Source: Saccoglossus kowalevskii (taxonomy: Eukaryota; Hemichordata; Enteropneusta; Harrimaniidae). Taken from it: 64,000 bases of DNA. Positions 17,769 through 63,799 of the stretch are shown here, in pieces (the first letter of the stretch is position 1; each line of letters starts with the position of its first letter). The position numbers and the translations under genes were made by a program. Under the pieces are notes generated by a model that saw nothing but the letters and a program-made list of their open reading frames with translations, was not told where the DNA came from and did no database searches. Location of the stretch: NCBI RefSeq assembly GCF_000003605.2, contig NW_003116453.1:843808-907807 (forward strand), written 5' to 3'.

Positions 17769-17931
17769 TTAAAGGGAGGAGTCGTCACCTGCGCATGCGT
17801 CAGATGGCCATAGCGTGTCATTGTTTACAAGCAAGCGTCTACCCATGAGCCTTTGCGTTTTAGTGTGTGTTGTTATCGTCGCTTGGGACTCAATTCCCGC
17901 GCGTGCGCAGGTGACGATCCTCCCGCTTTAA
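17769..17931. mobile_element. TTAA-flanked MITE copy 3
   Basis: 163 bp. Ends TTAAAGGGAGGAGTCGTCAC and GTGACGATCCTCCCGCTTTAA, with the same interior as copy 2 in the same orientation. Confidence 0.9.
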
Positions 17932-20220: not shown

Positions 20221-21163
20221 TCAATGACAACGGCGCGCGGAACAGGCACATTCTCTGAGAATTCCGATGTGTTAGTACAGACCACTTCTACACGAACTTA
20301 ATGAAGCATNNNNNNNNNNNNNNNNNNNNNNNNNNNNNNNNNNNNNNNNNNNNNNNNNNNNNNNNNNNNNNNNNNNNNNNNNNNNNNNNNNNNNNNNNNN
20401 NNNNNNNNNNNNNNNNNNNNNNNNNNNNNNNNNNNNNNNNNNNNNNNNNNNNNNNNNNNNNNNNNNNNNNNNNNNNNNNNNNNNNNNNNNNNNNNNNNNN
20501 NNNNNGGCGCGCGGAACAGGCACATTCTCTGAGAATTCCGATGTGTTTAGTAACAGGACCACTTCTACAACGAACTTTAAATGGAAGCATGTCGAACGAA
20601 ACTTCCGTGGAGCATGAACAGAGTTGGTTGGTGTAGCTGTCTGTGTCCGTGTCATCGGAGGCAACAGGCAGTGAATAAGAGTTACAAGTACAGTAACAGC
20701 CGTACGCAGGAATCACCGCGGGCAAGCAACCATGAAAACGCACACCGAGTACTATCGGTCGTATCGTGCACGTGTTCGGATTTGTCAGTGTGCCTGAAGA
20801 ATTGCGACGACGTTCGCGTATTATTGGTGGCTTGACCGTGTCCGCATTAGGCGTGTCTCTACCGTCCCATGGACCCATTGGTTGCTGTCTGTCACTTGAA
20901 AACAGAGAAGGAGACGTATAGTCGTCAATTATGTCAAGTTCGTCCCATGTTATTTCTTCCTCGTTGAAGGAACTCCCATCAACAGGCACTTCGTATTGCC
21001 AACCTGGCTGCATGTCGTCAATTCTGTTTGAGAAATCTGACCATCCATGGCTATTTATGTCATTGATAGAACCACCGCGATCTGCGATGTAAGCATGCCC
21101 GCCTTTTCCAGCCACTAGTAAACTGAATACAAGCATCAGTGTTATTCGTCGGAGGTCCATTTT
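20221..21163 (-). CDS. Bursicon-like cystine-knot (CTCK) prohormone
   Basis: ATG at 21160 on the minus strand directly follows a splice acceptor (ctacacttccag|aaa), implying a 5' UTR intron. The frame reads a signal peptide (MDLRRITLMLVFSLLVAG), an acidic 90-residue region, RERRR at 115-119, NSS, then a cystine knot from Cys131: CTIRPIVLGVRFHGC, LPAVIPAYGCYCTCNSY, CSCS, VRC, ECACSARRCH. GCxPxxIPxYxC...CxSY matches bursicon alpha best; gremlin/DAN proteins share CNS(F/Y) but not the rest. Bursicon subunits are secreted dimeric hormones acting on LGR2-type receptors; that role is inferred here. The frame hits an assembly gap at 20505, but the duplicated flank at 20221-20309 gives the true end (RCH, stop at 20221-20223), for about 221 aa. 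The CC of the usual CMCC motif is CS here. Confidence 0.68.
20310..20505. other. Assembly gap (196 N), spurious
   Basis: A run of 196 N. The sequence left of it (20232-20309) repeats the sequence right of it (20506-20590) apart from single-base deletions, so the gap probably does not exist in the genome. Confidence 0.95.
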
Positions 21164-42037: not shown

Positions 42038-42132
42038 ATGAAGACGTGTTTTAGATTCAGCTTCAACTTATTCTTATTCATAACTATTCTCATTCTGTTT
42101 TCTGAATTCTGCATAGAGGTATCGTCAGGCAC
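42038..42132 (+). CDS. sspo: SCO-spondin exon 1: start codon and signal peptide
   Basis: ATG at 42038 opens a 31-codon exon reading [20 protein letters not shown] then FSEFC..., a short basic N-terminus followed by a strongly hydrophobic run, as in a signal peptide. It ends AC|gtaagt. The two leftover bases AC need one base from the next exon, and exon 2 (acceptor gacag at 42649) supplies G to make a Thr codon. This phase match supports choosing this ATG over the open frame directly upstream of exon 2, which has only a TTG or a non-secretory ATG. An 8-9 bp inverted repeat (ATTCTCCT/AGGAGAAT, 41932-41957) lies about 80 bases before the ATG, probably in the 5' UTR or promoter. Confidence 0.75.
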
Positions 42133-45100
42133 GTAAGTAGTTTTATGAATGTTTAAATTATTATAATTGTGTCTTGTTGTGATGCGACATACACCATTCA
42201 CGATTTGTCTGCTTAACATCAACATAATAAATATTTCGGGGACGGTAGACTTCGTAAATCAGCTCACAAATGCAAATCAGAAAACTGTTCTTTTAACCGG
42301 AGATTGTTCGCCGAAGACAGCATGTTTTTTTGACAAGATAAACTAAATTAATGAAAACTTTACGATTGTTTTACATTTATATACAACTTGTATAAAACAA
42401 TGCAATTTTCCCATATATCATATTGTCTTTCATAAAACAGATAGCTGTCAATACCGCAGTCATTTATTGTTTTATTTGATAACATACTTTTTATTGACCA
42501 TCAGAGAATCACAAATGGTATTTTATAAATTAGTGTAATTCAATTTTGTCTTATTTTTTGTTGATGGGAATTTACACGAATTTATTCATCAATATCGATT
42601 GTTCTCTAATACTACGCAAACAACTTCAATATGCTATGAATCATGACAGGGTCAGTGAGTCCCATTACTGCAACGTCACGTATAAAGAAAATGACACCAT
42701 TGTCATTCAAGAAGAGGAAACCAGGGAAGTGGAATGCTGGGAAATATCAGCTTATAACAAAGTGGGTTATCAACTGAATGTGGCTTTGATGTCTCCAGAG
42801 GACGCCCTACAAGCCATTTATTGCCCAATTATAAAGTATGTATCCATTACGATGTCAATTACTTCATAGAAAATATAATTATAGGTTAAAGCGTGAGGGT
42901 CGTCACCTGCGCACGCGCGGGAATTGAGTCCTAAGCGACGATAACAACACAGGCTAAAAAGGCAAAGGCTCATGGGTAGACGATTGCTGGTAAACAATGA
43001 CACGCTATGGCCATTCTGACGCATGCGCAGGTGACGACTCCCCCGCTTTAAGTAATTTTTACAGACCGCCCCCCCTCTNNNNNNNNNNNNNNNNNNNNNN
43101 NNNNNNNNNNNNNNNNNNNNNNNNNNNNATTTTTGTTTACATTCTTTATTGCCTTATTTGTTAATTTTTCTTTTGTAATAACTAATACACGTTTTTGCAT
43201 TGCAGACCAAGAACCACACGAACGATCGAACGTGAAAATGTGCGGAAAGAATGCTGTGATGGGTGGCATGGAAAATATTGCTCGCTGCGTAAGTCTTGTG
43301 ATCTATCATTGGACTGCCTTTCCAAAGGAAAATTCAATATTTTACGTAGAATCGAACCGATCAGACAGAGACACTGAAAATAATTTGTCTTCACTTATTT
43401 GATTGCAGCAATATGTGAACCTGGTTGTGAAAATGGAGGACGGTGCATCGGTCCTGATATCTGCCAGTGTTTGGACGGTTTCACAGGAGACCAATGTGAA
43501 ATAAATAAAGGTATCTGAGGTCGCCTTTTTTCATCTTTACATTTCGAGAGTATAGAAGCTGAGTGTGTATTGTTGTTATGTCATATTTGCCAAACTTTAA
43601 ACCTTGAATTTTGTTTTAATATAGAAGTCGCAATAAACACCTAGAGTGAATTACATAACAGTTAGCACATAGAAGGTGCTGAAATCACACGATGCATGGC
43701 ACGTAGCTAGTCTGACGAAGTCGCATGCGTTGCGCCCTCCGCGGTGCTCCAAACCCAAGCGAGGTCTGATGTCGTTCGGCTGGCAAGGGCCCACTCACGC
43801 CTACATGTCAGACTAGGCACGTAGCATATGGAATTTACGTTTGTCAAATACATTGTCAAATACAGCTCTCATATTCCATGTAGTATTGGTATGATAACAG
43901 TAAATCCCATCACAAAGTTTGACTAAAATTACGTTTTGTTTTCTAGCTTTGGAAAGTGAGGCTATGTCAGGTAAGGGTATATTTATATGCATGTATATAC
44001 CTTATGTAACACATGTTTGTTAGTTTTATGTGTACTACATGGCCAGTGGCACAACATAATAGCAAATAATAATAAAAAAAACTAGGTCACCAGAGTGGCT
44101 TGCATATCACCGCGCATGCTCTGAAGTTGCTTGCGTTACATAGCGCAATGACTATTCGATTGGAATCAATAATTTACATCACTTCTTGACTTTAAAATGC
44201 TGACAACCCGTTGACGTCGCCAATTATATAAATTTCTCTATCTGTGGTTGGTTAATATAGTATATTGGTAAATATGTTTTTCTAAGTGAATCATGATCAA
44301 AAACGGACACACAAACACATAATGATACTCATTTTCAATTGGCAGAAGCACTCATAACGTAAGCGTAACAACATAATTCGGTGTAAAGAAATATTAACAA
44401 CTGTTTAATGACGCTCTGGTTCTAATGTCATTTTGAAAATGCGAAATGTGTCAAGTTTATCAAGTGAAATTACATCGTAATACCATTCTGAGTAAGAAAC
44501 AAAAAAACATCTTAGACCTGGAAAACAGTGTACTAACACAAGCATCTATGTTAGAAAGTTGCTGTGACTCCCGTGCTTCATGCAGATTACAACAGAATAA
44601 TAATGACTTTATATCATGTGTTCAGGTGTGTTTAGCATGTACAGAAGACATCTTAATATTATACAGAATATTCTAACATTCATTTCGGTAACGATATGTA
44701 ACACAACGACAATACAAATACATACAGATGGATGGATTTCAACTTACTGCTATTACATAATATAATTATGCATAAATTTAAATGTCAATGAGGCAGTATC
44801 GATGATGCTGAAGCATGTTTACATGTCACAACGAATTATGTTTTATCACGATCTAAACGCATTTTAGTGACGCGCAAAAAGTATTTTGTTTAAACAAATA
44901 GCAGTGGAAATGCTCATGCGTTTTGAATTTCTGGAACGTACTATTAATTCAAAATGCATGCACATTTATGTAATGTTTTATCAAACGACTATGATTTTTA
45001 TGTGATGCAATAAGCAATTATTATCCAGACTTTATATCACCATCCAAATCAAAATAACAAAAAAAACAACTTATCACTAACACATTGACCACTCAGTACC

Positions 45101-48100
45101 AGTACAAACATCATTTATTCACTAACACATTGACCACTCGGTACCAGTACAAACATTATTTATTCACTAACACATTGACCACTCAGTACCAGTACAAACA
45201 TCATTTATTCATCTACAGAAACCAACAAGTATTTTCAATATAAAGAATTCGCTACTTGTTTGATCTATGGCCCCGACCACTACCGTACTTTCGATGGCCG
45301 GAAGTTTAACTTCGCCGGACGATGTGCCTATACTATGCTAGCGAGCATGGACGGTGGTTACAACATTATCATCGAAAACATGGAATGTGATCAAATTGAA
45401 ACGTGTAGAAAGGTATGTAATACACTGTTCAATAATCGCAATAACATCTGAATAACGAATGACTAAGTCATTTTACTTTATATGTGATTGATTATGTAAC
45501 TATCAGATTGGCTACTGTGGCTTAATTATTAACCATTTAAACACCTCGTATATTTCCTGCCATGATTGTGGTGCAACATCTTTGCTCATTTCTTTATGAT
45601 TATTTTTGTTAGTTTTGAATCAAATGTACATTATTTCCCATTGACTGCGTATTCATCAAAATGTGCGTAAAAGACAACTCATAATAGTTGATCTTGTGAA
45701 ACGTGACAAAGTTGACTTTGGCGTTGATATGAATAATTTGCAGAACACTAATTGTTCTAGTGATCTTCATAGTGAGGTTTCATTTATCACTCATTGCAAA
45801 TAACTTGAATGATCAACAATTTTAACATTGAAATATATATTATATTTATTTTAATAATTTATTCGTTTATTTATTTATTTATTTATTTTAATCTACTATA
45901 TCATAACTCTTTAGAAACTTACTATAAAACTTGGCGAAGACAAAATAGTTGCTATTGGAACACAAATTAGCGTAAACGACAAGTCACTCGCTGACACTGC
46001 GTTACCATATAAGACGCGAGGTGAGTATTAAATGACCTCTAGTTTCTTCTTGTCTATGTTGTTCTCACTTCATGTATTTCTAAAGGCAGCATGCGAGCCA
46101 ATTTTCAATTTCTTTGTATGGTTTTTACTCGTTTGTTTGCAGGTTGCTGTCAAGCAGGAGTTGGTAAAACTATAGTACACAGCTGGTGTTTCTGCAAAGC
46201 GATCCTGTCCATGTGGTCTTGTTTTGACCAATCACAAATCACATATGATTTTTTTTTAAATAATAAATTAGTGTTGTTGTTGTAAGTAGTGTAACTAACA
46301 CTTTCGATTTATATATAGCATATGTTTGATGTTTATTACAACGTGATCCAGCATAAAATATCCTTTTTTTTCAGAATGCAAATAACTAATTAGAATATAT
46401 TGTGGTTCCAGGTATCATTGTGAAAAGATTTGGTGATTACACGTTTCTGGAAAGCGGGCTTGGTGTACACGTGAAATGGGACGAGGGCAATACCGTGTAT
46501 ATTACCGTTGCAAATCAGTACGACTACTATGATAGCACACTGGGGCTTTGTGGTGTATTCAATAACGATCCAAATGGTAAGAAACGCTTTCCTTTTAAAC
46601 CAAGCTTTAGTAAATGAACATAATCGTTACAATAACTTTGATATATAGTCTGGCAAAGACAATTCAATAAGCAATGGACTTTTTACTCTATAGATGATTT
46701 TAAAACCAAGAATTCTGAAGTGACGTATTTCCCTGCTGTATTTGGAAATTCGTGGAAGGCGTTGGCTCCAGGAGAGGTGAGTGTCTAAAACCCTATAATA
46801 GTATATATGTGATTGAATACCAGTCATAACCATGTATATAACCTGGTGCGACCGACCACACTGTTCATAAAATAATTTATCAATTTCCATTACACTGTTT
46901 AAACTTTTCTACGCATACAGACTTGTTCAGATGTTGCCGATACATTACATCCGTGTCAGCTTCACCCAGAGAGACTAGACGAGGCGTTATTGAGATGCGA
47001 AGCAATGAGAAGAGGAACATTTGAGTACTGCAATGACGTGGTGAGTTTTAGTACAATATGGTGAAAGTAAACCTTATGATCACAGACATCACAAATCTAT
47101 AAAAAAAATGCATATTTAGAGCACCACATATAAAATTTACATTTGATACATTACGCGCATTGACCTTGTTCGACGTGCGCATGTCAGTGACATGGTGACA
47201 TTAATTACACGTAATGGGACGACCAGCCGCAAATAACGACTTCGGTTTCCGCTATTTTATAACCGTCCTGTATATAGGCCTTTCTCATTAGCATTCACAA
47301 TGACACTTCACCACGTGTCATTAAATTAGATTTCAATCATTAAATGCACTTTCATGTTATTGGGACGTATATATGCATATTTACATCCCCGATGTTAACT
47401 GCTTTTATTCAAATCAGCTAGACCCTGATGCGTACATTGACGACTGTCTGTACGATGTATGTGAATATGGATTGAATGAAGACTCACTAGAGGAAATTCT
47501 ATGTGAATCATTCACGCACTATGCACGGGAATGTGCAGATGATGGGATGAGCATGAAATGGCGAACTCCTGGATTCTGTGGTAAGAAATATACATAGTAT
47601 ATATACTACGATGACATCACGATCTTTCTATTTATATTCGATATGAAAGTTATCAACAACAAATCTATTTCTGGCAAGAATCGAGCTCATTCCGCGTCAT
47701 CTGGAATCTTTTTTTTTCTGTGATTGATGTACTTCGTGTTTTTTTTTTAATTGTTCAAAGCCATCAAATACCAATCATAAAACATTGTTTAGTTCTGCCA
47801 TATATATTGTTTAAATTTGATGTCTACATGGAGTAACATTTTCGGTATAAATCGGACCTCATTGGAGGTGGGAATCCCATGTCACGTGACTTTGGCCTTA
47901 GTTTAATGTAAATTGTGTTCGGATCGTTGCCCCATTTTCACTGACAATTATGTCATACATACCTAATTATAACTAACTTATCATACAATATATGGCATAC
48001 TATCGTTCATTCAGCAAACCAAACTATCTGATCTAAATATCTGACTTAAATCTACCAACAGAGAGGGAATGCCCCGGCGGACAGATATACACCGACTGTG

Positions 48101-49232
48101 CTACACTTTGTCCACGCACGTGTGCAACCGTCAATTATGACTTGGAGAAACACTGTTCAACTTATTGTGTTCCCGGATGTCAGTGTCCCGAAGGAAAGTA
48201 CCTAGATGATGGTATGTGTGTCTACCAAGCAATGTGTCCATGTGTACATAACAGGGAGAGGTATAACAACGGTTCTATCATTTCACAAAAGTGTAACACG
48301 TGGTAAGTTGTATATCGCGACTCGTCTTCGTCTCACCCCTGAGTTGACTGTCTAAAAATATTTCCTAAATTGTCTCAGAGTGCGCGTTGATTGTTGTGCA
48401 AATAAACGCATTTGACCCGCATGTGTTTACATTGATATATGATACTAGTATTGTACCCACGTTAAAGCGCGGTGGTCGTCGGGCAGCGCGTGTTCGAATT
48501 TCATGTAAACAAACAATGTATTTTACACGTGTTGTGTACGTCGCTGTGAGTCTCATATAGAACAGGACGCGGCGACGTCAACCGCCCTTTGAATGCACAC
48601 GGCCAAGGATATCCTTCTTTGATGGGCTAGATTATACCTCAGATGCGTTTTGCAGGTTCAAGATGTTGTTTATATGCACATTATATATGTTTCATTTATG
48701 TACATGATATGCATCTCTAAATAGTCTCAACAACCTGAAAAACCATCACAGGGTTCAATAAGCAATAATGTGTTTTTGTTGAGGTTCTATTGTTGAGACC
48801 TTGTTCAAATACAGTAGACAAAGCATTATGAAATAGTTCGAATCGAATCGAATCGAATCGAATAGAATAGAATAGAATAGAATAGAATAGAATAGAATAG
48901 AAAGAATAGAATAGAATAGAATAGAATAGAATAGAATAGAATACTCTGCATTGCACATATTCAAACTATGTAAGCTAACAAAACTTCAACCAGGACACCT
49001 TACTTACATATATACTTACATATATTACCCATCGTCTAGCACATGTCAAGGAGGTACGTGGTTTTGTACTCAGAACACATGTGATGCAACATGCTCTGTG
49101 TATGGAAATGGACATTACGTCACATTTGATAATCGTCACTACATGTTTCAAGGGATATGTCAATATACATTGGTTGAGGTTAGTATAATCATACAATGAT
49201 AACCGACAATACATAATTATAATAATAATAAC

Positions 49233-49314
<82 letters not shown>

Positions 49315-52300
49315 GTTTATTACGCAACTGTAATCTGCTGTGGATACAGTAAGGTAAAAAAAAACATATTCAAATAAAATAAAAATACTCTATTCAACAA
49401 AATGAAACATGTAAAGGAAGCAATTTCTGGTCACGTAATGTTACGCTACTGCTATGAATAGGCCACACATCCAAGTGTTGCATCACTTTGACTTTTCTAT
49501 ACAGAGAAGACGCCACGTTTAACATATCAACATTTTCCAACACATGCAAATCATGCCAAAATATTTTCATATAATTAATCACAGGTGTTGAGGGACTGTG
49601 AATTAATGAATGCATATTTTCCTCTCAGTGATCTCTGCCCTATATCTGCATACATCATCATCTTCTAACAATTTATTACTGAATACATGTATATCGGTAG
49701 GAATTTACAGATGATAACATCACAATCAAGGCAACAACAGAAGACTGTGGAAGCAGGGGGAGTGTTGCTTGTTTATCACAAGTTAGCATTACAATACATA
49801 GCACTACGGTATCTCTGAGTCGGGATGGCGAAGTTGTTATGAATGGATACAGAGTACACTTACCTTACCGAAATGAAGATGCCAGTGTAAAGCATGCTTC
49901 GTCTATCTTCACTGTGGTGGAGTCAACAGGTGTTACACTATTATGGGATAACCACATGCGTTTGTATATAAGGTTGTCACCAGCGTGGATAACCAAGGTG
50001 AATACTGGCAATGATATGATATGATATGATATGATATGATATGATATGATATGATATGATGTGATTGATTGATGTGATGTGATATGATATGATATGATAT
50101 GATATGATATGATATGATATGATATGATATGATATGATATGATATGATATGATATGATATGATATGATATGATATGATATGATATGATATGATATGATAT
50201 GATATGATATGATACGATTTCCAGTAATATCTTTTTGCACCACGTTCATTTGTTGGCAGCCGCAAAACAAACAATTACAGTAATACGACTTGTAAGTCGA
50301 ATATACATGTATTTCCTTTGAAACCCAGAAATTTATTCGTACCAAAGGCATGCAATCAAATCCAAACATCACAGTCTCGACCTTTATAATACAAGGCCGA
50401 TGTCTCAAGTGTGGAGTTATTTTGTATAACTCATGAATTTCACTTTCTGATTGAATGTCCACAACAGACAGAAGCAAAATCGAGGCTATTTCAATCAGCA
50501 CAAACCTCAAATCATCATTTCAATATGTTAGACAATGAATCAAAGTTTATATATATTATGGGCAAAATACATATAGAACTGGCAGTTTATATTAACGAAA
50601 GTGCCATTTTCTAAACCAGTGTTATCAGTATATTTATTTTTGTTTTGTTCTATGTTCTATTCAAAATGAACAATGTCAATAAAGTTACTATTATATTATA
50701 TAGGTAAGAGGTTTGTGTGGAACCTTCGACTTCAAGCAGTATAATGACTACCTAACCAGGGCTGGGGATGTCGAAGATAGTGTAACTGCATTTGCAAACA
50801 CGTTCAAGGTCGACCAGTCGTGTCGTGATATCGACGAAGAGTCTGAAATTGATATGTGTAATATTAACACCAATCTGGTTTCATATGCCTATGATTCGTG
50901 TAGTTTCATGAAATCCACTGCATTTGAGAAATGCCACGGGGCAGTTGCTGTGGAAGATTTCTTTGAGGATTGTCTGCAAGACGTTTGTGGCGCATATGAT
51001 CAAATCAGAGTGTTGTGTTCCATTATATCTGCATATGCCCGTGAATGCGCACTGGCTGGGATTATCGTGGACTGGAGAAATAGTGGTATCAATCAAATCA
51101 ATGAAACTTGTGGTAAGTTTCGATTATAAGAAGGAATTCTTTGATCTCGTTCTTGTTCCCATTTGATGCTCGTTTCTGTAAACTACATGCAATACGTCCA
51201 GAATATCTATGACGGCGGAAATATTTTCTTCGAGTTTTAACATAATATTGGTGTGTATCTTGTTAATTATGAATATTTACTGTATACTATATCACCAACT
51301 TATTGGTCTATTACTAAAAGCAAAGGAGTCGTCACCTGCGCATGCCTCAGATGGTCATATCGTATCATTGTTTACAAACAAGCGTCTACCCACGAGCCTT
51401 TGCGTTTTTAGCGTATGTTGTTATCGTCGCTTGGGATTCAATTCCCGCGCGTGCGCAGGTGACGACCCTCCCGATTAAAGTACCAACAATTATGAAATGC
51501 AGAAAGGCCAATCTGCTTCTTTTGGTATCTTTCTTCTCTTTGAAAAACATTGTTATGAATACGTCACTAATACATGCTAATATCCATGTAACTATCTGTG
51601 TATGTTGTACGAACCCACTGAACATATTTATTATAGGGTGTTTTTCTGTACAAATTCATCTACGAGTAGTTAGCAGAAAAAGTGGAAAATTGGAAGAAAA
51701 TGTCGATAACCAGTGTGTTGTGAGGGAGCAAGAAAACTATTTTTAACACTACAAAGAAAGCTTGATTAGAGCATCTCAAGTATAAATAAATTGTGATTTT
51801 AAAACAATGTTTTCATCATAACACACAATAACGTTAATATTTAACACAATATGTAACTTTCAGGACATAACTGCCACAGTGGTCGTGTATATGCTGAGTG
51901 TGCTTCTCCTTGTCGTCTGACGTGTCAAGACTTGGCCTATCAAAACAGTAGTGAATGCGATGATGCCGAGTGTGTATCTGGCTGTGTATGTGCCGATGGA
52001 TTCGTGCTGGACCATAGAGGGCGGTGTGTTAACCCTTTGAACTGTAGTTGTATAGACAAACACAGTGTGTACCACGTGGGAGATATCATTCAGAGAGGGT
52101 GTCAAACATGGTAAGAGTAAAATAGACACATAGTATTTCCTGTATTATGAACTTGAACTTGTTTTAATCATTAAAACCATTAATATTTATCTTAACATGG
52201 AATATGTTAAAATGAAAGCCAGTGTGTATTTCTTGAAACAATGTTTCTAAATCCCAAAACGACAAAATGTCAGTCAGTATACGATTGTTTCACCAGGTGT

Positions 52301-55300: not shown

Positions 55301-58300
55301 GGCGGATTTATCCTATATTAAAAATATATATAATATAGATTAAGACAATATATTTTACACTTAGAAAATTGCTTTTTTATGTACTACAACATTTATGAAA
55401 AGTTGTTTTCTGAAAATACCCGTTTTTCCCTCAATATAAAATAATTGTCTCGTAGCAACAAAAACTATTTAGAACTCTTCAATTTTGAACAATAATATGT
55501 ATACGGCTTATTTATTTTTTGACAATAAACCGTAAAACAGACACATATTAGTTAATTATAATAATAATAATTATCAGTTTTGTGCTAGAACTATTTTGGA
55601 GACTAAGGAAAAGACTCTTCCAAACCGATCACTTGGCGTCGATTGATATCAGTACGCCTGAGTCCAAGTCAACCACTAAAGAGACAACTGCCATTTTGCA
55701 TAATGTCGACGTGATACCCTATTTCCCAGCATCGGGAATTGCCCAAAATAAAATGTATGAGTTGATGTTTTGTCATGGACTTGTTCAGGATTGAACGATA
55801 AAATACTTCCAAACACCTTTTCACATATGTTTTACGTATGCTAATTATATGCTAAGAATATTACATCACAACAATTTAAAACTGAATAATTCACAGCTAA
55901 ATGGTGTACATGTAGATTGGGGGGGGAGAGCTTTCATAAAGTATGATCATACAACACTTTGAATCGAAGTTACTGATTCAAATCATGTCACCATGCCATA
56001 CAACTGTTTGACGGTTCATTCTCTCGTCACATGTTTCAGTTAAAACCAGAAAGAAAGTCCTTGTCCCAGAAGAGTTGCTCCATAATGACCAATGTTGATG
56101 GGCCATTTGCTGCTTGTCACCACAGTGTGGATTGGAAGGTATACAGTAAGTGGTGCGAGTACGAATCATGCAAGTGAGTAATTCCGTAAAGCTGGTTATT
56201 GTTGTTCTGGTTTTTTGTTGTAGTTGTGGGTGATATATGTATGAATATAATTATTATAATAGTAACATACATCTCAGTTGCTTGTACATTTACTGAAGTA
56301 TGGTATTTTCAATAGTTGTATTGAAGACGAAGTCTGTGAATCTGTATGTACCTCCATAGCCGCGTATGCAGAGGAATGTAGTAACCATGGTGTATATATT
56401 AAATGGAGATCAGAAGATTTCTGTTGTAAGTAAAACTTCACCATGTACACGTAAATTATAGATACAATAGATGTGTGATATTGTTGTTCGATACGCTATG
56501 TTCATATACATATTTTATACGAAAAAAATAATTCAAACGAACTAATGAAATGCGTATGAGATTCTGGTACATACTAATATTTAATTACATAGGTTTTTAT
56601 TTAGGGTTGTCATTTATTTAATGGGACTAAACGTTTATAGTTTACATTAATATATTTAATCATATTTTCAAATTACCTATTTAAATGTCACACAAATATT
56701 GTAATATTCATCGCACGTCCAACTCTATAAAGTGATGAGATAAAACCGTATACTCAGTGAACACGACACCATACTTTACTTATGTTACTTCTTGTGTATT
56801 CGTACAGCTGTGACATGTGAGGCGAATATGGAGTACCGGTCTTGTGGTTCGGTGTGTCAAGTCACTTGTGGAACTATTGAGTATGAACCACCAGACTACT
56901 GTAGTACCTGTGTCGAGGGATGTTTCTGTCCAGACGGCATGTTGATGGATGGTAAGCAACAGATAACAGATTCCAAAATTTTACAAACAATATAGTACTC
57001 ATATATTATATTATTATACATCTGTCACCGTAACGCCACAAGTTACAACGTGCCGTAATTTTGCGGTATTTTACGGGTATTTTCATCCTACCATATAAGG
57101 AAATGCGAATTCCGAATATGGAATGATTACACGCGTAAGCGTAATAAAACAAACATGGCTGCCATCAGGGTTTGACCGGACTGATTCTGTTCTAAGCTTT
57201 TTGGATTTCGGCATTCCCATGATTTATCCTTGGAAGGAAAGATGTATAATAATAAGGTTATTACGAAAATACCTCAAAGTATGCACTCAGGCAGTACACC
57301 GCCGCATTGACCTCTGCTGCGCGTCGATCGATACTCCCGGTGTACTGTCTTCGTACATACTTTGAGGTATCCTCGTAATAATCTCATATTTTATGATTGT
57401 GATGGTTTCGGGTCTGCTATTGATCTATTATAACATTGTACTTCTCAGGTACGAATAAGATGTGCATATCCACACGAGACTGTCCATGTGAATATGATGA
57501 CATAGATTACCCAGCAGGCTCTTTCATTATCATAAACTGTAGGAATTGGTAGGATATATTGCTCGTTTTTCTCCCTCAGTACAATGCTTTTACCTTCCGA
57601 TATACTCAGCATTTTCGTCTTGTGATAAATATAAACAAATACGTCTGAAACATTTCAAATGTTTATTTTCAATGTTCATTTCAGCACCTGCCATAAGGGG
57701 AGTTTTGAATGCGTTGGTGATGCCTGTGTCAGTAAGTTAGTTGAATTATTTAAAATATATTGAATCAAGTGCTGTTGGTTATGTAGATATATAAATATAT
57801 ATATATATATCATATGAATAATACATGTTTGTCTGTCTTTATTTGCTTGTTGTGCTTCTATCCAGGTATTTGGTTTAATTTAGTGTGAATATTACATTGC
57901 CTAAATATCGCAACCAGAAAATAGATCCGTTTACCTCCTCCCCACTTAAATATTGTCTCTTCTCCCTATTGTCATAGTGGAAGAGGCTATATGCGGCCAT
58001 AACGAGTTCACCTGTGACAATGAGCGATGTGTTCCCACTGGATGGGTGTGCGAAGGGGAAGACGACTGTGGCGACGGATCAGATGAAACTGATTGTGGTG
58101 AGTTGTCATGATGAATTCAATGTTGTCAGTGTAGCCATAGTGAGTTCAGTGTTGCCGTGGTGAGTTCAGTGTTGTCATGGTGAGTTCAATATTGCCATAG
58201 TGAGTTCAGTGTTGCAGTGGTGAGCTCAGTGTTGCCGCGGTGAGCTCAGTGTTGCCGTGGTGAGTTCAGTGTTGCCGCCGTGAGTTCAGTGTTGCCATAG

Positions 58301-59034
58301 TGAGTTCAGTGTTGCAGTGGTGAGCTCAGTGTTGTCATGGTGAGTTCAGTATTGCCATAGTGAGTTCAGTGTTGCAGTGGTTAGCTCAGTGTTGCCGCGG
58401 TGAGCTCAGTGTTGCCGTGGTGAGTTCAGTGTTGCCGCGGTGAGTTCAGTGTTGCCATAGTGCGTTCAGTGTTGCAGTGATGAGCTCAGTGTTGCCGCGG
58501 TGAGCTCAGTGTTGCCGTGGCGAGTTCAGTGTTGCCGCGGTGAGTTCAGTGTTGTCATAGTGAGTTCAGTGTTACAGTGTTGAGCTCAGTGTTGCCGCGG
58601 TGAGCTCAGTGTTGCCGTGGTTAGTTCAGTGTTGTCATGGTGAGTTCAGTTTTGTCATAGTGAGCTCAGTGTTGTCATGGTGAGCTCAGTGTTGCCGTGG
58701 TTAGTTGAGTGTTGTCATGGTGAGTTCAGTTTTGTCATGGTGAGCTCAGTGTTGTCATGGTGAGCTCAGTGTTGCCGTTGTGAGTTCAGTGATGTCATGC
58801 TATTAGTAAAGATGTTATTAATTGTGAGTTCAGTAGATTAGAAGTTAGAAGTGTTTTAGTGTCTATAAAAATCATCAACATGATAACGACCAGCCGAAAT
58901 GCACCCCAAATTTACTGTTCACGGCAGTGACGTATTGTACAGTGTATTTTTATTTCCCAGAAAAATAAACAAACTTGGACAAACTGTTGCCAGACTGTGT
59001 GTGACGTCATACTACATTAAAATGATGTTACGAT

Positions 59035-59065
<31 letters not shown>

Positions 59066-62000
59066 CGTAGTTAACGTTTACATTGTTCTTAATATTCAAT
59101 TAGTTTATACATGCGATGCATACGAATATATATGTGAAAATGGCGACTGTATTCAGGATGACTTCCGGTGTGACGGAATACCAGACTGTACTGATAATAG
59201 TGATGAACACGGATGTCGTGAGTATTCTCAATTATGCTGTTATATATCAACATTTATAGTAAGCCATGTGTAAAGAATTTCATGAATGTTAATGAATAGA
59301 CATTATTCACAAATGTTGTCTACCGAGATCTCGTTAAAGGTGAGAAAGCCACGCGGCTTGCTTTGCCCCACCCTCGTCCCCGCTAATACTAATAGCGTTC
59401 CATTCTCTGCCGCCATGGCGTCCACTGCTCCGCCGACTTCTGTAACCGTGGTATTTAAAACAGCAAATAGAACACTATTTAGGAGGCAAAAACACGTTTC
59501 CTTCTCGCGATCAAAGAGATTTTAGCGGCCATTTGCGAATAAGGTTTATTTGAATATTTTGGGTGTGTTGATATTTGTACTTTCCTATTGATGCAGCTTT
59601 TCCGTCCTGTGCTGATAATGAGTTCAGCTGTAACAATGGAGCATGTATCGCATTAGACTTCCGATGTGACTCGCATCCTGACTGTGGTGATGGCGATTAC
59701 TCAGATGAAGATGACTGTCCCACACGTATGTATTTCAAATGTGGAAACCATATACGACAAAACTGATTATTTGTATTGTGTTGATGTATCATATTCGATA
59801 AACAGTCATGTGTGAAATGTAAAATTCACATAAGTGTTGATTAATTTATTTACTTGTCTTTGAAATGATGCGTTGTCATGTACGCAAACCGCGTGTACGA
59901 AGAGTGATTATTTTGGTTGGCACGATGTTATCGGTACACTAGGGCCTAGTGTCAAGCACGAAGTACAAATGATATTGTTTTTGGTTTTGTAAATTGCCGA
60001 TGTATGTCTTGAATATCAAAATAAGCGTTAAACCTAACTTTATTCTAATCGTGGCCACATAAATATTTGTATGTCGTCAAAACATAAATATAAATAATCT
60101 CAGCATTAAACATTTTTAGTCAATTATAGTTATTAATACATTATCAATTGACATATATAATGACACTTGTATATCAGTTACGTAACAAAATACATTTGTG
60201 ACATCTATAAGACGTATAGTTGTTTGTCAGTGAACTCAATCTAGAAGAGCTAATTTATACAATGAGGTGTTTGCGTCCTTTGTTTTCAGGGCCACCATGT
60301 TCTGTGCGTGAGTACCAGTGTCGGAGTGGTGTATGCATACCGATTCACCAGTACTGCGATGGGCGCGATAACTGTGGAGATATGACCGATGAACAAAACT
60401 GCAGTAAGAATAATAATTTTAATTCGTGCACATAATGTGTTCGTTTATATTGTAATCAAGTAACGTAATTAGCTTCCTATCACCGTCAAACAATGCAATG
60501 GCAAATTCAGCTTGCATGGTATTTCCTCTCGGACCATTGGATGTACTCTATCACCAGGTAATGTTATATAAATTGCCGCAAAGTTGAATATAATTCATAC
60601 CAAATCGTTCGTTATACATCACTTCTATTCCAGATTGTACTTGTGAAGGTAAATTCACTTGCCATGACTGTATTTGGTGCGTTGCCGAGGAACGCGTATG
60701 TGATGGAGAAGACGATTGTGTCGATGGCTCTGACGAAACCAACTGCCGTAAGTTAGTGAAGTATATTTCGGTTCGTATATCGTCTCTGTGATATACAGTT
60801 ATATTATTGCTGTGTACTTCAATTCAAAATAACCATATTACCATTACGTCATAGCTTGCAAAGATTTCACTTGTGATGATGGCGTATGTATCAGTGAATC
60901 GATGGTGTGTGATGGGGTACCGGACTGTTCACTGGAAGAAGATGAATACGCATGTAAGATCAGTGTTTGCTAATCGACCACAAATGAAATATGATTACAA
61001 TGATATATAAATAAGCATGTGATTAATATAATGTATTCATTCATCATACACATTAACAGGTTCGACTATAGTTCCACAAACAACATTACCTGAAATGACA
61101 TCAATCTTTCAAACAACTGCATACAGTAAGTATGGAAATTCTTCCTCAATCACGAAATTATGACAATAAATCTCAAAATTTCGAATTACAATAAATAAGA
61201 AGCATGTTGATTAATATAATGCATACATTTATTATAAACACCAACAGGTTCAACTACAGTTCCACAAACACCATTACCCCAAACGACCTCAGTTTTACCA
61301 ACAACATACAGTGAGTACGAACATTCAATCTGGGTTTCTGTATATTGCAACAATGAAGTATGTTACTGGTACATTATAATACGTTGTGTGTATTCAGTTC
61401 CCATTATAGACCGACACTTTCGCGTCATTTACGTAACAGCATGTATCGCTCTGGGTGAAAGGCATTTTTTTATTAATATAGTGTGGTTTTGTTGATGTGT
61501 ATTTTACCAGAGTATTAAACCTATCGAATCGTTTTTTTTATAGAAGTCATATTTGTATCTTTATTCAGTGCCGCCATGTTCTGTGCGTGAATACCGATGT
61601 CGGAGTGGTGTGTGTATACCAATTCACCAATACTGTGATAGACACGATAACTGTGGAGATATGACCGATGAACACAACTGCAGTAAGAATAACTATTTAT
61701 CGAATCAAAGAACTGTTTAATTTGCTTAGCACAGTTTATTGTCCCATAATACATTTGGTGAATGATTGTCTCCAATTACTCCCTCCCTACCTACAATATC
61801 ACAAGACACACAATGCAATGACACCGAGAGCTTCTATCAGAGATTCGCTCGGACCATTAGCTGAATCTATCGTCCTGCACCTTATTGCCAGGAACATATC
61901 GCACACATTGAGTCAAAATTGAAATTATTCACACCAATTATATACCTCATCATTTCCAGATTGCACTTGCGAAGGTAAATTCACTTGCAATGACTGTAGT

Positions 62001-63799
62001 TGGTGCGTTGCTGAGCAACGCGTATGTGATGGAGAAGACGATTGTGACGATGGTTCTGACGAAATCAACTGCCGTAAGTTAGTGTAGTATAGTGATCGTC
62101 AACTTGATTTATGAGATTGGTAATATTGCATATATCATTTTTGTAAAACACAGAAATATTATTGTGAGAATGAGTCTGAAATCATAATAACCATTCTAAT
62201 ATATTATCATTACGTCATAGCTTGCAAAGATTTCACTTGTGATGATGGCGTATGTATCAGTGAAACGATGGTGTGTGATGGGGTAGCGGACTGTTCACTG
62301 GAAGAAGATGAATACGCATGTAAGATTAGTTAGTGTTTGCTACTCACGAATGAAATATTATTACAATGATATATCAACAATAAATAAGAAGAATGGTGTT
62401 TAATATAATGTATTCATTCATCATACACACTAACAGGTTCGACTACAGTTCCACAAACAACATTACTCGAAATGACATCAGTTTTACCAACAACATACAG
62501 TGAGTATATAATAACATTATTTTTACAATCTCGCCATTATGCCTTTCAATTTCTAATCTGTATATTGTATCACGAAACGCCTACTCTCAATCTCGAAGTT
62601 GTAATTTTGATATTAAAAGTTAACATTTCGGGATTACCAGCAGTATGGCATAATGGGTGTCCGTGTGATAGAAAGTTGATAGTTTGTTACTGATTTATTA
62701 TAATACATTGTGTGTATTCAGTTTTCATTATAGACCGACATTTGCATGTCATTTACAGCAAGTCTCGCTCAGTATGAAATGCGTTTTTTGTTATTATTAT
62801 ATTGCGGTATTATTCAAGTTTACATGTATCAGAGCATTAAATCTATTGAATCAGTAACTGTTTTTTTCAGAAGTCATATTCGTATCTCTTTTTTCAGGTC
62901 CGCTATGTTCTGTGCGTGAGTACCAGTGTCGGAGTGGTGTGTGCATACCAATTCACCAATTCTGTGATGGACACGATAACTGTGGAGACATGACCGATGA
63001 ACACAACTGCAGTAAGAATAACTATTTATCGAATCAAAGAAATTTCCTTAGCACAGTTTATTGTTCCATAATATATTTGTTAATGGTTGTCTTCAATTAC
63101 TTCCTCCCTACCTACAATATCACAGGACACACAATGCAATGACCCCGTGAGCTTTCATCAGAGATCCTTTCAGACCATTAGCTGAATCTGTCGTCCTGTA
63201 CCATAGCACACACATTGAGTCAATCTTGAAATCATTCACATCAATTTATATACCTTATCATTTCCAGATTGTACTTGTGAAGATAAATTCACTTGCCATG
63301 ACTGTAGTTGGTGCGTTGCCGAGCAACGCGTATGTGATGGAGAAGACGATTGTGACGATGGTTCTGACGAAATCAACTGCCGTAAGTTAGTGTAGTATAG
63401 TGATCGTCAACTTGATTTATAAGATTGGTATTACTGCATAAATGATTTTTGTAAAACACAGAAATATTATTGTGAAAATGTGTTTGAAATCATAATAACA
63501 GTTACAATATATTACCATTACGTCATAGCTTGCAAAGATTTCACTTGTGATGATGGCGTATGTATCAGTGAATCGATGGTGTGTGATGGGGTATCGGACT
63601 GTACACTAGAAGAAGATGAATACGCATGTAAGAAGATCATGTTCGCTAATCGACCACAAAATAAATATTATTACAATTATATCAATATTAAATAACAAGA
63701 ATGGTGTTTAATATAATTCATTATACACACTAACAGGTTTGACTACAGTTCCACAAACAACACTACCTGAAATGACATCAGTTTTACCAACAACCTACA
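42038..63799 (+). CDS. sspo: SCO-spondin-type gene (5' complete, 3' runs off window)
   Basis: Forty-two GT-AG exons join without a phase conflict into 5662 nt (about 1887 aa): signal peptide, EMI, EGF-like, three vWD-C8-TIL assemblies with an extra TIL before the third (vWF-like D1-D2-D'-D3), then 12 LDLa domains and Thr/Pro linkers. In vertebrates this architecture (EMI, D domains, LDLa, then TSR/TIL arrays) is SCO-spondin, a giant secreted glycoprotein that polymerises into Reissner's fibre. What I see is the domain order, splice sites and cysteine patterns; the orthology is inferred from architecture. vWF and otogelin share the D assemblies but lack an LDLa array directly after D3, and gel-forming mucins lack LDLa. 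The TSR region is not in the window. Exons are small (24-409 nt) and introns carry many microsatellites and MITEs. No TATA box was assigned. Confidence 0.9.
42650..43288 (+). CDS. sspo: SCO-spondin exons 2-3: EMI domain
   Basis: Exons 42650-42835 and 43206-43288 encode an EMI domain. Visible hallmarks are a first Cys in [11 protein letters not shown], a Glu-rich stretch (EEETREVEC), YNKVGYQL, then YCPIIK across the intron, and the terminal [10 protein letters not shown] that closes EMI domains. The order and spacing closely resemble the N-terminal EMI of vertebrate SCO-spondin (WCE...EEE...C...Y...GWQL...CPIYK...CCPGW). Donors are aaa|gtatgt and ctgc|gtaagt; the acceptor of exon 3 is ttgcattgcag. 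The intron between them holds a TTAA-flanked MITE (42886-43051) and a 50-base assembly gap. Confidence 0.88.
42886..43051. mobile_element. TTAA-flanked MITE copy 5, inverted, in the SCO-spondin EMI intron
   Basis: 166 bp in the opposite orientation to copies 2 and 3. Ends TTAAAGCGTGAGGGTCGTCA and GTGACGACTCCCCCGCTTTAA. It lies 50 bases after the donor of exon 2. Confidence 0.9.
43079..43128. other. Assembly gap (50 N)
   Basis: Exactly 50 N in the intron between the two EMI exons, directly after a C-rich run (ccgccccccctct). The round size suggests a placeholder of unknown true length. Confidence 0.97.
43409..43510 (+). CDS. sspo: SCO-spondin exon 4: EGF-like domain
   Basis: A single 102-nt exon encodes [20 protein letters not shown] followed by [10 protein letters not shown]: six cysteines in the EGF order C-x3-C-x5-C-x5-C-x-C-x8-C, with the GFTGxxC ending typical of laminin/EGF type. 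Acceptor gattgcag, donor aaag|gtatct, both phase 1, so the module is symmetric. The EGF sits between EMI and the first vWD, a position where I do not recall an EGF in mammalian SCO-spondin. Confidence 0.85.
43698..43825. mobile_element. 108-bp MITE with 10-bp target-site duplication
   Basis: Perfect direct repeats GGCACGTAGC (43698-43707 and 43816-43825) flank a 108-bp body whose ends are TAGTCTGAC and GTCAGACTA. Target duplications of 9-11 bp are typical of the Mutator superfamily. It lies in the intron before the 24-nt microexon of SCO-spondin. Confidence 0.8.
43947..43970 (+). CDS. sspo: SCO-spondin exon 5: 24-nt symmetric microexon
   Basis: Between ttttctag and |gtaagg lie 24 nt that read ALESEAMS in frame, phase 1 at both ends. 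Including or skipping it leaves the frame intact. It is retained here because both splice signals are strong and the phase fits, but it cannot be confirmed without transcripts; it could be a cassette exon or a false positive. Confidence 0.5.
45075..45209. repeat. Three 45-bp tandem repeats before the vWD1 acceptor
   Basis: Units start cactaacacattgaccactc at 45075, 45120 and 45165 with only a few mismatches. The last unit ends 9 bases before the acceptor of exon 6 and may supply its branch point region (cactaac). Confidence 0.93.
45219..46776 (+). CDS. sspo: SCO-spondin exons 6-9: vWD domain 1
   Basis: Exons 45219-45412, 45915-46020, 46412-46576 and 46694-46776 encode a complete vWD. It starts [19 protein letters not shown] with AGRCAY (canonical HYxTFDGxxFxFxGxCxY), continues through the [11 protein letters not shown] loop, a beta-rich segment, VHVKWDEGN and the [12 protein letters not shown] turn, and ends with VFGNSWKAL. 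The CGLC oxidoreductase-like motif of vWF D1 is replaced by LGLC, so only the second Cys is kept. The introns are phase 0, 1, 1 and 0. The acceptor of the first exon is preceded by three 45-bp tandem repeats. Confidence 0.9.
46921..47580 (+). CDS. sspo: SCO-spondin exons 10-11: C8 domain 1
   Basis: Exons 46921-47040 and 47418-47580 encode a C8 (vWF type D-associated) domain: [13 protein letters not shown], a short helix, FEYCNDV, then the canonical [13 protein letters not shown] core and the ending [13 protein letters not shown] then WRTPGFC. Eight conserved cysteines can be matched. Splice phases are 0, 0 and 1. Together with the preceding vWD and following TIL it forms the D1 assembly. Confidence 0.9.
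48062..48302 (+). CDS. sspo: SCO-spondin exon 12: TIL domain 1
   Basis: One 241-nt exon carries a trypsin-inhibitor-like cysteine-rich domain: [19 protein letters not shown], then [15 protein letters not shown] and [13 protein letters not shown], followed by the start of a small C-rich E/vWC-like module ([13 protein letters not shown]) split by a phase-2 intron. The cysteine spacing is that of TIL modules after C8 in vWF, mucins and SCO-spondin. Confidence 0.9.
48462..48593. mobile_element. Possible related MITE subfamily in a SCO-spondin intron
   Basis: TTAAAGCGCGGTGGTCGTCG at the left and CGACGTCAACCGCCCTTTGAA at the right form imperfect inverted ends resembling the TTAAAGCGGG family, but the interior differs. 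Confidence 0.5.
48836..48943. repeat. Pentanucleotide microsatellite (AATCG)n to (AATAG)n
   Basis: Four to five AATCG units change abruptly to about 16 AATAG units with one AAAG slip at 48900. It lies in the intron before vWD2. Confidence 0.96.
49040..49997 (+). CDS. sspo: SCO-spondin exons 13-14: E-like module and vWD domain 2
   Basis: Exon 13 (49040-49178) completes the E-like module ([10 protein letters not shown]) and starts vWD2 with [19 protein letters not shown] and [10 protein letters not shown]. Exon 14 (49701-49997) continues [18 protein letters not shown] and runs to [17 protein letters not shown]. The acceptor is atcggtag at 49700, not the nearby tttacag; only the former keeps the phase-0 join to exon 13. 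An (AAT)n block lies in the intron, and a (GATAT)n microsatellite begins 13 nt after the exon 14 donor. Confidence 0.88.
49220..49313. repeat. (AAT)n trinucleotide microsatellite
   Basis: About 31 units of AAT with a single AAC interruption near the start, in the intron between SCO-spondin exons 13 and 14. Confidence 0.97.
50011..50215. repeat. (GATAT)n pentanucleotide microsatellite
   Basis: About 205 bp of atgatatgat repeats with one interrupted patch (gtgattgattgatgtgatgtg near 50060). It starts 13 nt after the donor of SCO-spondin exon 14. Confidence 0.97.
50704..51112 (+). CDS. sspo: SCO-spondin exon 15: end of vWD2 plus C8 domain 2
   Basis: The largest exon found (409 nt). It begins [20 protein letters not shown] (end of vWD2; the CGLC motif is again reduced to RGLC), passes [10 protein letters not shown], and continues without an intron through a complete C8: [43 protein letters not shown] and DWRNSG. 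It has the acceptor ttatatag and the donor tgtg|gtaag, phase 0 to 1. D1 and D3 have introns inside the same interval, so this assembly has a different exon structure. Confidence 0.9.
51314..51478. mobile_element. TTAA-flanked MITE copy 6, in a SCO-spondin intron
   Basis: Left end ctaaaagcaaaggagtcgtc (TTAA mutated), right end GTGACGACCCTCCCGATTAA, same interior as copies 2 and 3. It is in the intron between the C8-2 and TIL2 exons. Confidence 0.88.
51864..52110 (+). CDS. sspo: SCO-spondin exon 16: TIL domain 2
   Basis: A 247-nt exon with a TIL domain: [47 protein letters not shown], then [12 protein letters not shown] leading over a phase-2 intron into an E-like [10 protein letters not shown]. 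Acceptor taactttcag, donor catg|gtaaga. It closes the D2 assembly. Confidence 0.9.
52678..53804 (+). CDS. sspo: SCO-spondin exons 17-19: E-like and extra TIL (D' region)
   Basis: Exons 52678-52870, 53405-53499 and 53758-53804. Exon 17 reads [20 protein letters not shown] (E-like) and then opens a second consecutive TIL ([20 protein letters not shown] ... [12 protein letters not shown]). Exon 18 completes it ([19 protein letters not shown]), and exon 19 adds [15 protein letters not shown]. Two TIL-E units in a row before vWD3 reproduce the D' segment of vWF and SCO-spondin. Phases are 2/0, 0/2 and 2/1, all consistent. Confidence 0.88.
53950..55070 (+). CDS. sspo: SCO-spondin exons 20-21: vWD domain 3
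   Basis: Exon 20 (53950-54291) begins [20 protein letters not shown] then [10 protein letters not shown], has the [12 protein letters not shown] loop and ends GVRVLWDEG. Exon 21 (54874-55070) carries [30 protein letters not shown] and [13 protein letters not shown] to LNPCQ. The CGLC position reads SGLC, as in D1 and D2. The 582-base intron contains a GC-rich inverted repeat (AAGCCTCGCTTTC / GAAAGCGAGGCTT) and a GCGCCAGAGGGCGCT box. Confidence 0.92.
56040..56425 (+). CDS. sspo: SCO-spondin exons 22-23: C8 domain 3
   Basis: Exons 56040-56173 and 56316-56425 encode C8 of D3: [35 protein letters not shown], then across a phase-2 intron [20 protein letters not shown] and [13 protein letters not shown] with the final DFC. 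The C8 core YxxxCxYDxC is represented by [10 protein letters not shown]. Acceptor tgtttcag, donor tgcaa|gtgagt. Confidence 0.88.
56808..57731 (+). CDS. sspo: SCO-spondin exons 24-26: TIL domain and E-like module of D3
   Basis: Exon 24 (56808-56951) reads [20 protein letters not shown] and [17 protein letters not shown] (TIL). Exon 25 (57449-57548) adds [20 protein letters not shown]. Exon 26 (57685-57731) adds [16 protein letters not shown]. Phases 1/1, 1/2 and 2/1 fit. The intron after exon 24 contains a second copy of the composite repeat also seen at 1.1-1.46 kb. Exon 26 ends the D3 assembly and leads straight into LDLa. Confidence 0.88.
57008..57382. mobile_element. Composite palindromic element, copy 2 (inverted), in a SCO-spondin intron
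   Basis: Reverse-complement counterpart of 1104-1455: ttattatacatctgtcaccg ... agatgtataataataagg, then the palindrome acctcaaagtatgcactcag ... cgtacatactttgaggtatc. It sits between exons 24 and 25. Confidence 0.75.
57978..58097 (+). CDS. sspo: SCO-spondin exon 27: LDLa domain 1
   Basis: A 120-nt phase 1-1 exon: [20 protein letters not shown], then [16 protein letters not shown]. The six Cys and the acidic calcium-binding cluster (D-x3-D-x9-DE type) are intact. The donor TGTG|gtgagtt is directly followed by a 20-bp minisatellite whose units repeat that donor-like sequence. Confidence 0.93.
58098..58798. repeat. 20-bp minisatellite in intron, built of donor-like units
   Basis: About 35 copies of tgagttcagtgttgccatag and variants (gccgtgg, gtcatgg, gccgcgg). 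The array begins at the very first base of the intron after LDLa-1 (TGTG|gtgagttgtcatg). Confidence 0.93.
59038..59066. repeat. (AT)n dinucleotide tract before the LDLa-2 acceptor
   Basis: About 14 AT units, ending 38 bases before exon 28. Confidence 0.9.
59104..59217 (+). CDS. sspo: SCO-spondin exon 28: LDLa domain 2
   Basis: A 114-nt phase 1-1 exon: [20 protein letters not shown] then [16 protein letters not shown], a complete LDLa with calcium-binding acidic residues. The acceptor attcaattag is preceded by an (AT)n tract at 59039-59065. Confidence 0.92.
59597..59725 (+). CDS. sspo: SCO-spondin exon 29: LDLa domain 3
   Basis: A 129-nt phase 1-1 exon: [20 protein letters not shown] then [18 protein letters not shown]. 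It has two extra residues (DY) before the SDE acidic motif compared with the other LDLa domains. Acceptor gatgcag, donor cacac|gtatgt. Confidence 0.92.
60290..61310 (+). CDS. sspo: SCO-spondin exons 30-34: LDLa cassette, copy 1
   Basis: LDLa-A 60290-60403 ([19 protein letters not shown] then [16 protein letters not shown]), LDLa-B 60634-60747 ([19 protein letters not shown] then [16 protein letters not shown]), LDLa-C 60855-60953 ([17 protein letters not shown] then [15 protein letters not shown]; its last Cys codon is split T|GT over the intron), linker 61060-61125 ([19 protein letters not shown]) and linker 61248-61310 ([19 protein letters not shown]). All exons are phase 1-1. The Thr/Pro-rich linkers are likely O-glycosylated spacers. 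LDLa-C lacks the usual GSDE run, having SLEEDE instead. Confidence 0.92.
61569..62499 (+). CDS. sspo: SCO-spondin exons 35-38: LDLa cassette, copy 2
   Basis: LDLa-A 61569-61682, LDLa-B 61960-62073, LDLa-C 62221-62319 and one linker 62437-62499. Exon lengths are identical to copy 1 (114, 114, 99, 63). LDLa-A reads [16 protein letters not shown], with Arg in place of the Gly after CD. LDLa-B has [16 protein letters not shown]. LDLa-C has [15 protein letters not shown]. Only one linker exon is present, against two in copy 1. All phases remain 1-1. Confidence 0.92.
62898..63799 (+). CDS. sspo: SCO-spondin exons 39-42: LDLa cassette, copy 3
   Basis: LDLa-A 62898-63011, LDLa-B 63268-63381, LDLa-C 63529-63627 and linker 63737-63799, again 114, 114, 99 and 63 nt and all phase 1-1. 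LDLa-A has [12 protein letters not shown]. LDLa-C has [15 protein letters not shown]. The last donor is tac a|gtaag, so the reading frame continues past the window, either into a further cassette or into the remainder of the protein. Confidence 0.9.

Follow-up and report, generated by a model that had tools for sequence, protein, structure and literature searches.

Exon structure of a SCO-spondin-type gene, its front part and its putative 3′ end

Gene model and exon structure

The window analysed is the whole stretch of 64,000 nt that corresponds to positions 843808-907807 of contig C999 (949,116 bases, in a genome of 572 Mb). Positions past its end are given in extended window coordinates, i.e., contig position minus 843807. 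The + strand carries, from 42038 to 63799, the front of a SCO-spondin-type animal gene that looks ordinary and intact. Its exons and encoded modules are as follows.

42038..42132, + strand: exon 1, with the start codon and a hydrophobic stretch resembling a signal peptide (translation; signal peptide by eye)
42650..43288, + strand: exons 2-3, EMI-like module with 6 Cys (motif level; no Pfam EMI match)
43409..43510, + strand: exon 4, EGF-like domain (Pfam EGF_2)
43947..43970, + strand: exon 5, 24-nt linker exon (AG/GT flanks, phase 1-1)
45219..49085, + strand: exons 6-12 and start of exon 13, D1 assembly with VWD, C8, TIL and E-like parts (Pfam)
49086..52738, + strand: remainder of exon 13, exons 14-16 and first part of exon 17, D2 assembly (Pfam)
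52739..53804, + strand: remainder of exon 17 and exons 18-19, D′ with TIL′ and E′ (a further TIL stretch in the D2-D′ piece)
53950..57731, + strand: exons 20-26, D3 assembly (Pfam; PDB matches)
57978..59725, + strand: exons 27-29, LDLa 1-3, one domain per exon, phase 1-1 (Pfam LDLa)
60290..61310, + strand: exons 30-34, LDLa 4-6 and two Ser/Thr-rich linker exons, unit copy 1
61569..62499, + strand: exons 35-38, LDLa 7-9 and a Ser/Thr-rich linker, unit copy 2
62898..63799, + strand: exons 39-42, LDLa 10-12 and a Ser/Thr-rich linker, unit copy 3

The original prediction of 42 exons that join into 1887 codons was rebuilt from the sequence and holds, with consistent phases and zero stops. It should be noted that the predicted totals were known before the rebuild, in which every border was required to show AG/GT and a matching phase. 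The joined exons comprise 5662 nt, i.e., 1887 whole codons plus one base, and the remaining two frames of the same sequence contain 75 and 191 stops. All 41 introns inside the model are GT-AG, with lengths of 106 to 1248 nt, and a GT is also found directly after exon 42. The donor sites used match GTRAGT at a mean of 5.43 of 6 positions, as against 3.40 for the 1568 GT of the region, a background that includes the used sites. As a control, 300 length-matched draws from the gene's own introns display a mean of 121 stops and a minimum of 92. Thus the GT-AG borders, the phases, the lack of stops, the donor scores and the intron draws together show that the 42-exon model is not a chance construction. 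The least certain exon is exon 5, which is placed by its splice sites and phase.

Domain composition of the N-terminal and D regions

The region right behind the signal peptide has six cysteines and ends in a 10-residue terminal motif at the expected place, a combination that we take to be EMI-like. A profile match is lacking: Pfam EMI finds nothing in the joined protein, also at relaxed thresholds, and a genome-wide Pfam EMI search with E up to 10 finds six places, none of them on the contig of this gene. Exon 4 searched by itself gives EGF_2 at 24.3 bits, barely above the cut-off of 22.1. Of the two labels first given to this region, EGF is therefore supported by a profile and EMI is not.

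Pfam searches of the D region were made as part of a run on four pieces of the joined protein. D1 displays VWD (1.6e-25), C8 (2.7e-18) and TIL (5.1e-10). D2 has VWD at 1.6e-35 and C8 at 1.6e-17, with TIL at 5.5e-15 for D2 together with D′, and D3 has VWD at 2.6e-37, C8 at 1.5e-16 and TIL at 1.3e-9. Each of the three D pieces thus has VWD, C8 and TIL, and a further TIL lies in the D2-D′ piece; this is the predicted D1-D2-D′-D3 order. A search of PDB with D3 yields 34 distinct sequences at E up to 0.001, among them FCGBP, MUC5AC, MUC2, VWF and MUC5B chains and a luciferase; none of the 34 is named SCO-spondin.

Tandem expansion of the LDLa region

Directly behind D3, Pfam detects LDLa in 12 stretches (5.5e-97), in agreement with the predicted number. 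The third unit copy ends 201 bases short of the end of the window, and twelve is therefore a lower bound. The LDLa array is a tandem expansion that continues up to the window's end. Its unit consists of three LDLa exons followed by a short Ser/Thr-rich exon, copy 1 having two such exons, and the second of its three LDLa carries 8 cysteines and not 6. Copies 2 and 3 are the closest, with 87% DNA identity over 1015 aligned bases; copies 1 and 2 show 74% over 962 aligned bases and copies 1 and 3 show 75%, all identities being taken from the longest aligned stretches. Every one of exons 27-42 has phase 1-1, so that a further unit would leave the frame intact.

Intron 27 contains a separate repeat (58126-58791), in which a 20-base sequence is present in 33 copies. 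The repeat unit includes a donor-like GTGAGT and lies right behind the true donor, which has the identical sequence.

Sequences downstream of the window

The contig continues for 41.3 kb past the window, with N at extended positions 64001-75462 and 85994-94011. The first N stretch begins exactly at the window's end, has a size of 11,462 N and may be either an assembly gap or withheld sequence. Beyond it are seven exons on the + strand (extended coordinates):

75699-75866, + strand: first 3′ exon
76205-76454, + strand: second 3′ exon
77461-77586, + strand: third 3′ exon
77712-77873, + strand: fourth 3′ exon
78593-78639, + strand: fifth 3′ exon
78750-79043, + strand: sixth 3′ exon
79636-79682, + strand: seventh 3′ exon

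Reading the first of these exons in its TSR frame brings all seven into phase; a stop codon lies at 79682, and the domain order is TSR-TIL-TSR-VWC-like-cystine knot-stop. Pfam TSP_1 is found twice, at 46.0 and 36.0 bits (cut-off 21.6), and Cys_knot at 30.4 bits (cut-off 24), with DAN at 23.0 (cut-off 22) on the same knot. TIL reaches 29.4 bits (cut-off 24.5) when the exons are searched alone and is absent from the whole-piece scan; VWC is sub-threshold in Pfam. The original prediction had named a lack of downstream TSR domains as a refutation and had pointed to TSR, TIL and a C-terminal CTCK as the modules to look for beyond 64 kb; two TSP_1, a TIL, a Cys_knot and a stop are indeed there on the same strand.

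The C-terminal knot has 11 Cys, which we take to be the number in the VWF knot, and the stop follows after one further short exon. Its matches in PDB are DAN/NBL1 and bursicon-type chains with weak E-values, and no VWF knot is among them.

Phase 1 is found at the end of the last LDLa-linker exon in view and is implied by the TSR frame of the first 3′ exon. From the common strand, the phase 1 on both sides and the combined domain order, we infer that the front and 3′ parts would form one gene across 11.5 kb of N. The same layout could come from two neighbours, a D1-D2-D′-D3-LDLa gene that ends in the N stretch and a TSR-CTCK gene that starts there: the join is hidden by the N at 64001-75462, just 437 bases (201 + 236) being visible between the two parts, and limpet pedal mucus has P-vulgata_3 and P-vulgata_6 as separate proteins (PMC7333891). 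Against two neighbours stand the common strand, the matching phase, a first 3′ exon that is internal, and the combined domain order, which is that of SCO-spondin; this arrangement is unlikely.

Other features of the window and contig

The sequence ACGCATGCGCAGGTGACGACTC is present as seven near-identical 22-mers with up to 3 mismatches (mean 0.00 in 100 shuffles), at these positions:

7115-7136, 7446-7467, 17779-17800, 42897-43040 and 51326-51468: copies of ACGCATGCGCAGGTGACGACTC

Six of the seven copies form three inverted pairs, with partners ~120-330 bases apart. The repeats constitute a dispersed MITE-like element, of which two copies are in introns 2 and 15 of the SCO-spondin gene; intron 2 also has a 50-N run. 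By eye, a sequence that resembles the element is seen on the downstream locus L012, near 6660-6830 of that locus.

The - strand has one long ORF at 20510-21115, whose start resembles a signal peptide and whose end is a cystine knot; the ORF runs into a 196-N gap at 20310-20505. Pfam DAN scores 29.1 bits (cut-off 22), and matches to gremlin in PDB are weak, with E 0.2 and worse. Its sequence suggests a secreted ligand of DAN or bursicon type. With 41.0, its codon-usage score is by far the highest in 1-42 kb, the next being 13.7 for a frame antisense to it.

A tandem array of 2.4 kb at 8937-11346 displays periods of 128, 171 and 214, multiples of ~43 bases, and a strong GC skew. Another array, minisatellite-like by eye and with a unit of ~43 bases, GGTATGAGTAAGTGATTGGCCACATGGATGTATGTCCACTTA, takes up the whole of the contig's last 5.3 kb (L013, 1-5309). 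Beyond the second N stretch, L012 has on its + strand (7622-9262) an intronless ORF of 546 codons that is BTB-Kelch-like by eye. A search of the window against Rfam found 0 families.

Identity and copy number

D1-D2-D′-D3, then LDLa, then TSR, TIL and a knot is the order of SCO-spondin, and the predicted identity is upheld. The window most probably holds the 5′ and middle part of what is apparently the only SCO-spondin gene of the genome, a gene of ~37.6 kb at 42038-79682 (extended). The single-copy reading is based on searches in which the best candidates alone are scored. The knot used as query against its own genome gives one match at E up to 0.01, which is itself. D3 gives at least 99 matches at E up to 0.001, and the best three off the contig are exons that are 40-44% identical. 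A VWD cluster on contig C4504 (30 kb, 7703 N) has three GLCG motifs, and a motif scan of these 30 kb detected no LDLa, TSR or EMI-end motif.

VWF, MUC2, MUC5AC and MUC5B have the D1-D2-D′-D3 order in common with the protein described here, and VWF and gel-forming mucins end in a C-terminal cystine knot. A gel-forming mucin, VWF-like or FCGBP-like gene should be considered. The strong D3 matches are to mucin, VWF and FCGBP chains, short Ser/Thr-rich linkers are present, the N stretch could conceal a Ser/Thr region, and the genome has other VWD genes (at least 158 VWD matches at E up to 0.001). Against this, the visible parts contain no long Ser/Thr region and no Pfam VWA, but do contain twelve LDLa and two TSRs. 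The CGLC cysteine kept in 14 of 21 other motifs sampled from this genome is missing from D1 and D2, and the C4504 cluster, within its scanned 30 kb, is without LDLa and TSR. Such a gene is highly improbable here, and the SCO-spondin reading is retained below.

The encoded protein would be secreted, very cysteine-rich and multidomain. Its predicted layout is signal peptide, EMI-like module, EGF, D1-D2-D′-D3, LDLa with Ser/Thr spacers, an unseen middle, and TSR-TIL-TSR-VWC-like-CTCK. Ca2+ and lipoprotein-like or other ligands would be the binding partners of the LDLa array, and cells those of the TSRs. By analogy with published work on relatives, secretion by radial-glia-like epithelial cells may be expected.

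Cysteine pattern of the D assemblies

The equivalents of CGLCG are LGLCG in D1, RGLCG in D2 and SGLCG in D3; the first Cys is missing in all three. By sequence comparison, VWF and MUC5B have CGLCG in D1, D2 and D3, and FCGBP has it in the first six VWD repeats. CGLC in D1 and D2, taken as a mark of VWF and gel-forming mucins, is thus lacking from the protein described here. The first Cys of CGLC would pair with an early-loop cysteine. FCGBP and the D2 of MUC5AC have this early-loop cysteine, and none is there in D1, D2 or D3 of the present gene.

As a control, GLCG motifs were tallied in 33 of 42 loci of the same genome, the nine left out being those with the EMI matches, the one with the knot, and the contig sequence that follows the window. 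The loci partly overlap; with duplicates counted once there are 22 distinct motifs, including the D3 motif of this gene. The other 21 are 14 CGLCG, six EGLCG and one EGMAG. In C4504, the only sampled VWD locus in which D1, D2 and D3 were assigned, motifs 1 and 2 are CGLCG and the third, D3-type motif is EGLCG. With six of the 21 sampled motifs reading EGLCG, this third one among them, a missing first Cys is not rare in the genome, and its loss in D3 is not special to this gene; within the sample, its loss in D1 and D2 is.

VWD exon clusters are found on C4504, C2922, C3574, C2261, C3976 and C889, with motifs that are mostly CGLCG, and EGLCG in six. From these motifs, the animal's other VWD genes may have lost the first CGLC cysteine specifically in D3.

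In VWF, dimers of D′D3 are joined by Cys1097-Cys1097′ and Cys1142-Cys1142′, and Cys1091-Cys1099 is an internal bond (PMC8847404). When Cys1097 or Cys1142 is replaced singly, D′D3 dimerisation still occurs (PMC8847404). The D3 of MUC5AC is described with two interchain bonds, located in C8-3 and in TIL3, respectively (PMC11933400). That the first Cys of CGLC makes the interchain link in D3 was considered and rejected, as interchain cysteines are in C8-3 and TIL3 (PMC11933400, PMC8847404).

In the present gene, C8-3 of D3 aligns with that of VWF without gaps and keeps the equivalents of Cys1091, Cys1097 and Cys1101; Cys1099 is replaced by Ser, and the whole segment that holds Cys1142 is missing. 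The VWF set, i.e., interchain Cys1097 and Cys1142 with the internal Cys1091-Cys1099 pair, is accordingly incomplete in D3. VWF and MUC5AC have interchain cysteines in D3 (PMC8847404, PMC11933400), and the protein here differs in having no equivalents of Cys1099 and Cys1142. The D units contain 30, 30, 14 and 32 cysteines. An argument from these even counts was dropped, as two free cysteines also yield an even number.

With the first Cys of CGLC missing in D1, D2 and D3, and the equivalents of Cys1099 and Cys1142 missing in D3, head-to-head linkage of the VWF/mucin type looks unlikely from the sequence.

A proposed mode of assembly

VWF is described as forming tail-to-tail dimers through its C-terminal knot and then linking head to head through D3 (PMC8847404). 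The protein described here would likewise form tail-to-tail dimers, by way of the 11 cysteines of its C-terminal knot. Higher assemblies would then be made through the EMI-like and D modules, and as the D3 head-to-head cysteines and the D1/D2 CGLC motif are missing, these contacts would be mostly non-covalent. Against this proposal, the equivalent of Cys1097 is kept, single replacement of Cys1097 or Cys1142 leaves VWF able to dimerise, and the nearest solved chains to the knot are of DAN or bursicon type.

A zebrafish SCO-spondin mutant with five extra EMI residues does not form Reissner's fibre, and mutation of an LDLa cysteine leads to progressive disassembly of the fibre (PMC8487547). Both mutants fit a structural role of the two modules. 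It is tentatively proposed, as a possibility that falls somewhat short of even, that this SCO-spondin lineage gave up VWF/mucin polymerisation and makes a fibre or gel by way of tail-to-tail dimers, EMI and non-covalent D contacts. In a literature search of limited coverage, no work that pairs SCO-spondin with CGLC was found.

Relation to known SCO-spondin genes

Chick SCO-spondin is described as having EMI, three vWF-D, 13 LDLrA, 12 TIL, 27 TSR, vWF-C, EGF, FA5/8C and CTCK (PMC8487547). By its description, chick SSPO (Q2PC93) has in common with the gene here an EMI-like module, three VWD, LDLa after D3, TSR/TIL, a VWC-like module and a C-terminal knot. It differs in several respects. The gene described here has an EGF directly behind the EMI-like module, at least 12 LDLa with nine of them in tandem triplets with Ser/Thr linkers, and two visible TSRs as against 27 in chick. 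The linkers between LDLa triplets do not appear in the descriptions of vertebrate SCO-spondin that were consulted. The FA5/8C and EGF pair that follows LDLa in chick SSPO would fall in the N stretch at 64001-75462.

Among invertebrates, a sea urchin SCO-spondin gene is reported with a conserved multidomain structure (PMC2705372, citing Meiniel et al. 2008), and citing descriptions have it shorter than that of vertebrates (PMC2705372, PMC7333891). SCO-spondin is said to lengthen from echinoderms to vertebrates (PMC7333891). An annelid SCO-spondin gene and SCO-spondin immunoreactivity in an enteropneust are mentioned in PMC5543218, echinoderm radial glia are described as secreting material bound by SCO-spondin antibodies (PMC10570448), and findings in PMC8261243 point to orthologues in echinoderms, hemichordates and possibly all bilaterians.

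The weight that was claimed for this locus in the origin of Reissner's fibre was therefore overstated, with sea urchin and annelid genes already reported and findings that point to hemichordate orthologues. Invertebrate SCO-spondin genes (echinoderm, annelid) are already in print, and the advance is modest.

The limpet protein P-vulgata_3 is listed with vWFD x3, C8, TIL and LDLa x5, TSR and knot not being among its listed domains, and P-vulgata_6 with TSP1 x4 and a cystine knot (PMC7333891). P-vulgata_3 puts the same N-terminal half to adhesive or mucus use (PMC7333891), and a SCO-spondin-type gene could serve as an epithelial adhesive or mucus protein and not in neural secretion. The Ser/Thr-rich spacers, which would carry O-glycans, are in keeping with such a use; the TSR and cystine-knot parts, unlisted for the limpet protein, are present here, and on the whole the adhesive role is rather unlikely. 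It should be noted that this alternative concerns the use of the protein and not its family.

The analysis yields an exon map for both ends of a SCO-spondin gene that is apparently invertebrate. The gene shows an LDLa part that expands separately and few visible TSRs, and its cysteine pattern raises a testable question on the polymerisation of SCO-spondin. If the proposed mode of assembly is true, and if the cysteine losses are common to vertebrate SCO-spondin, the chemistry of Reissner's fibre would differ from the usual analogy with VWF.
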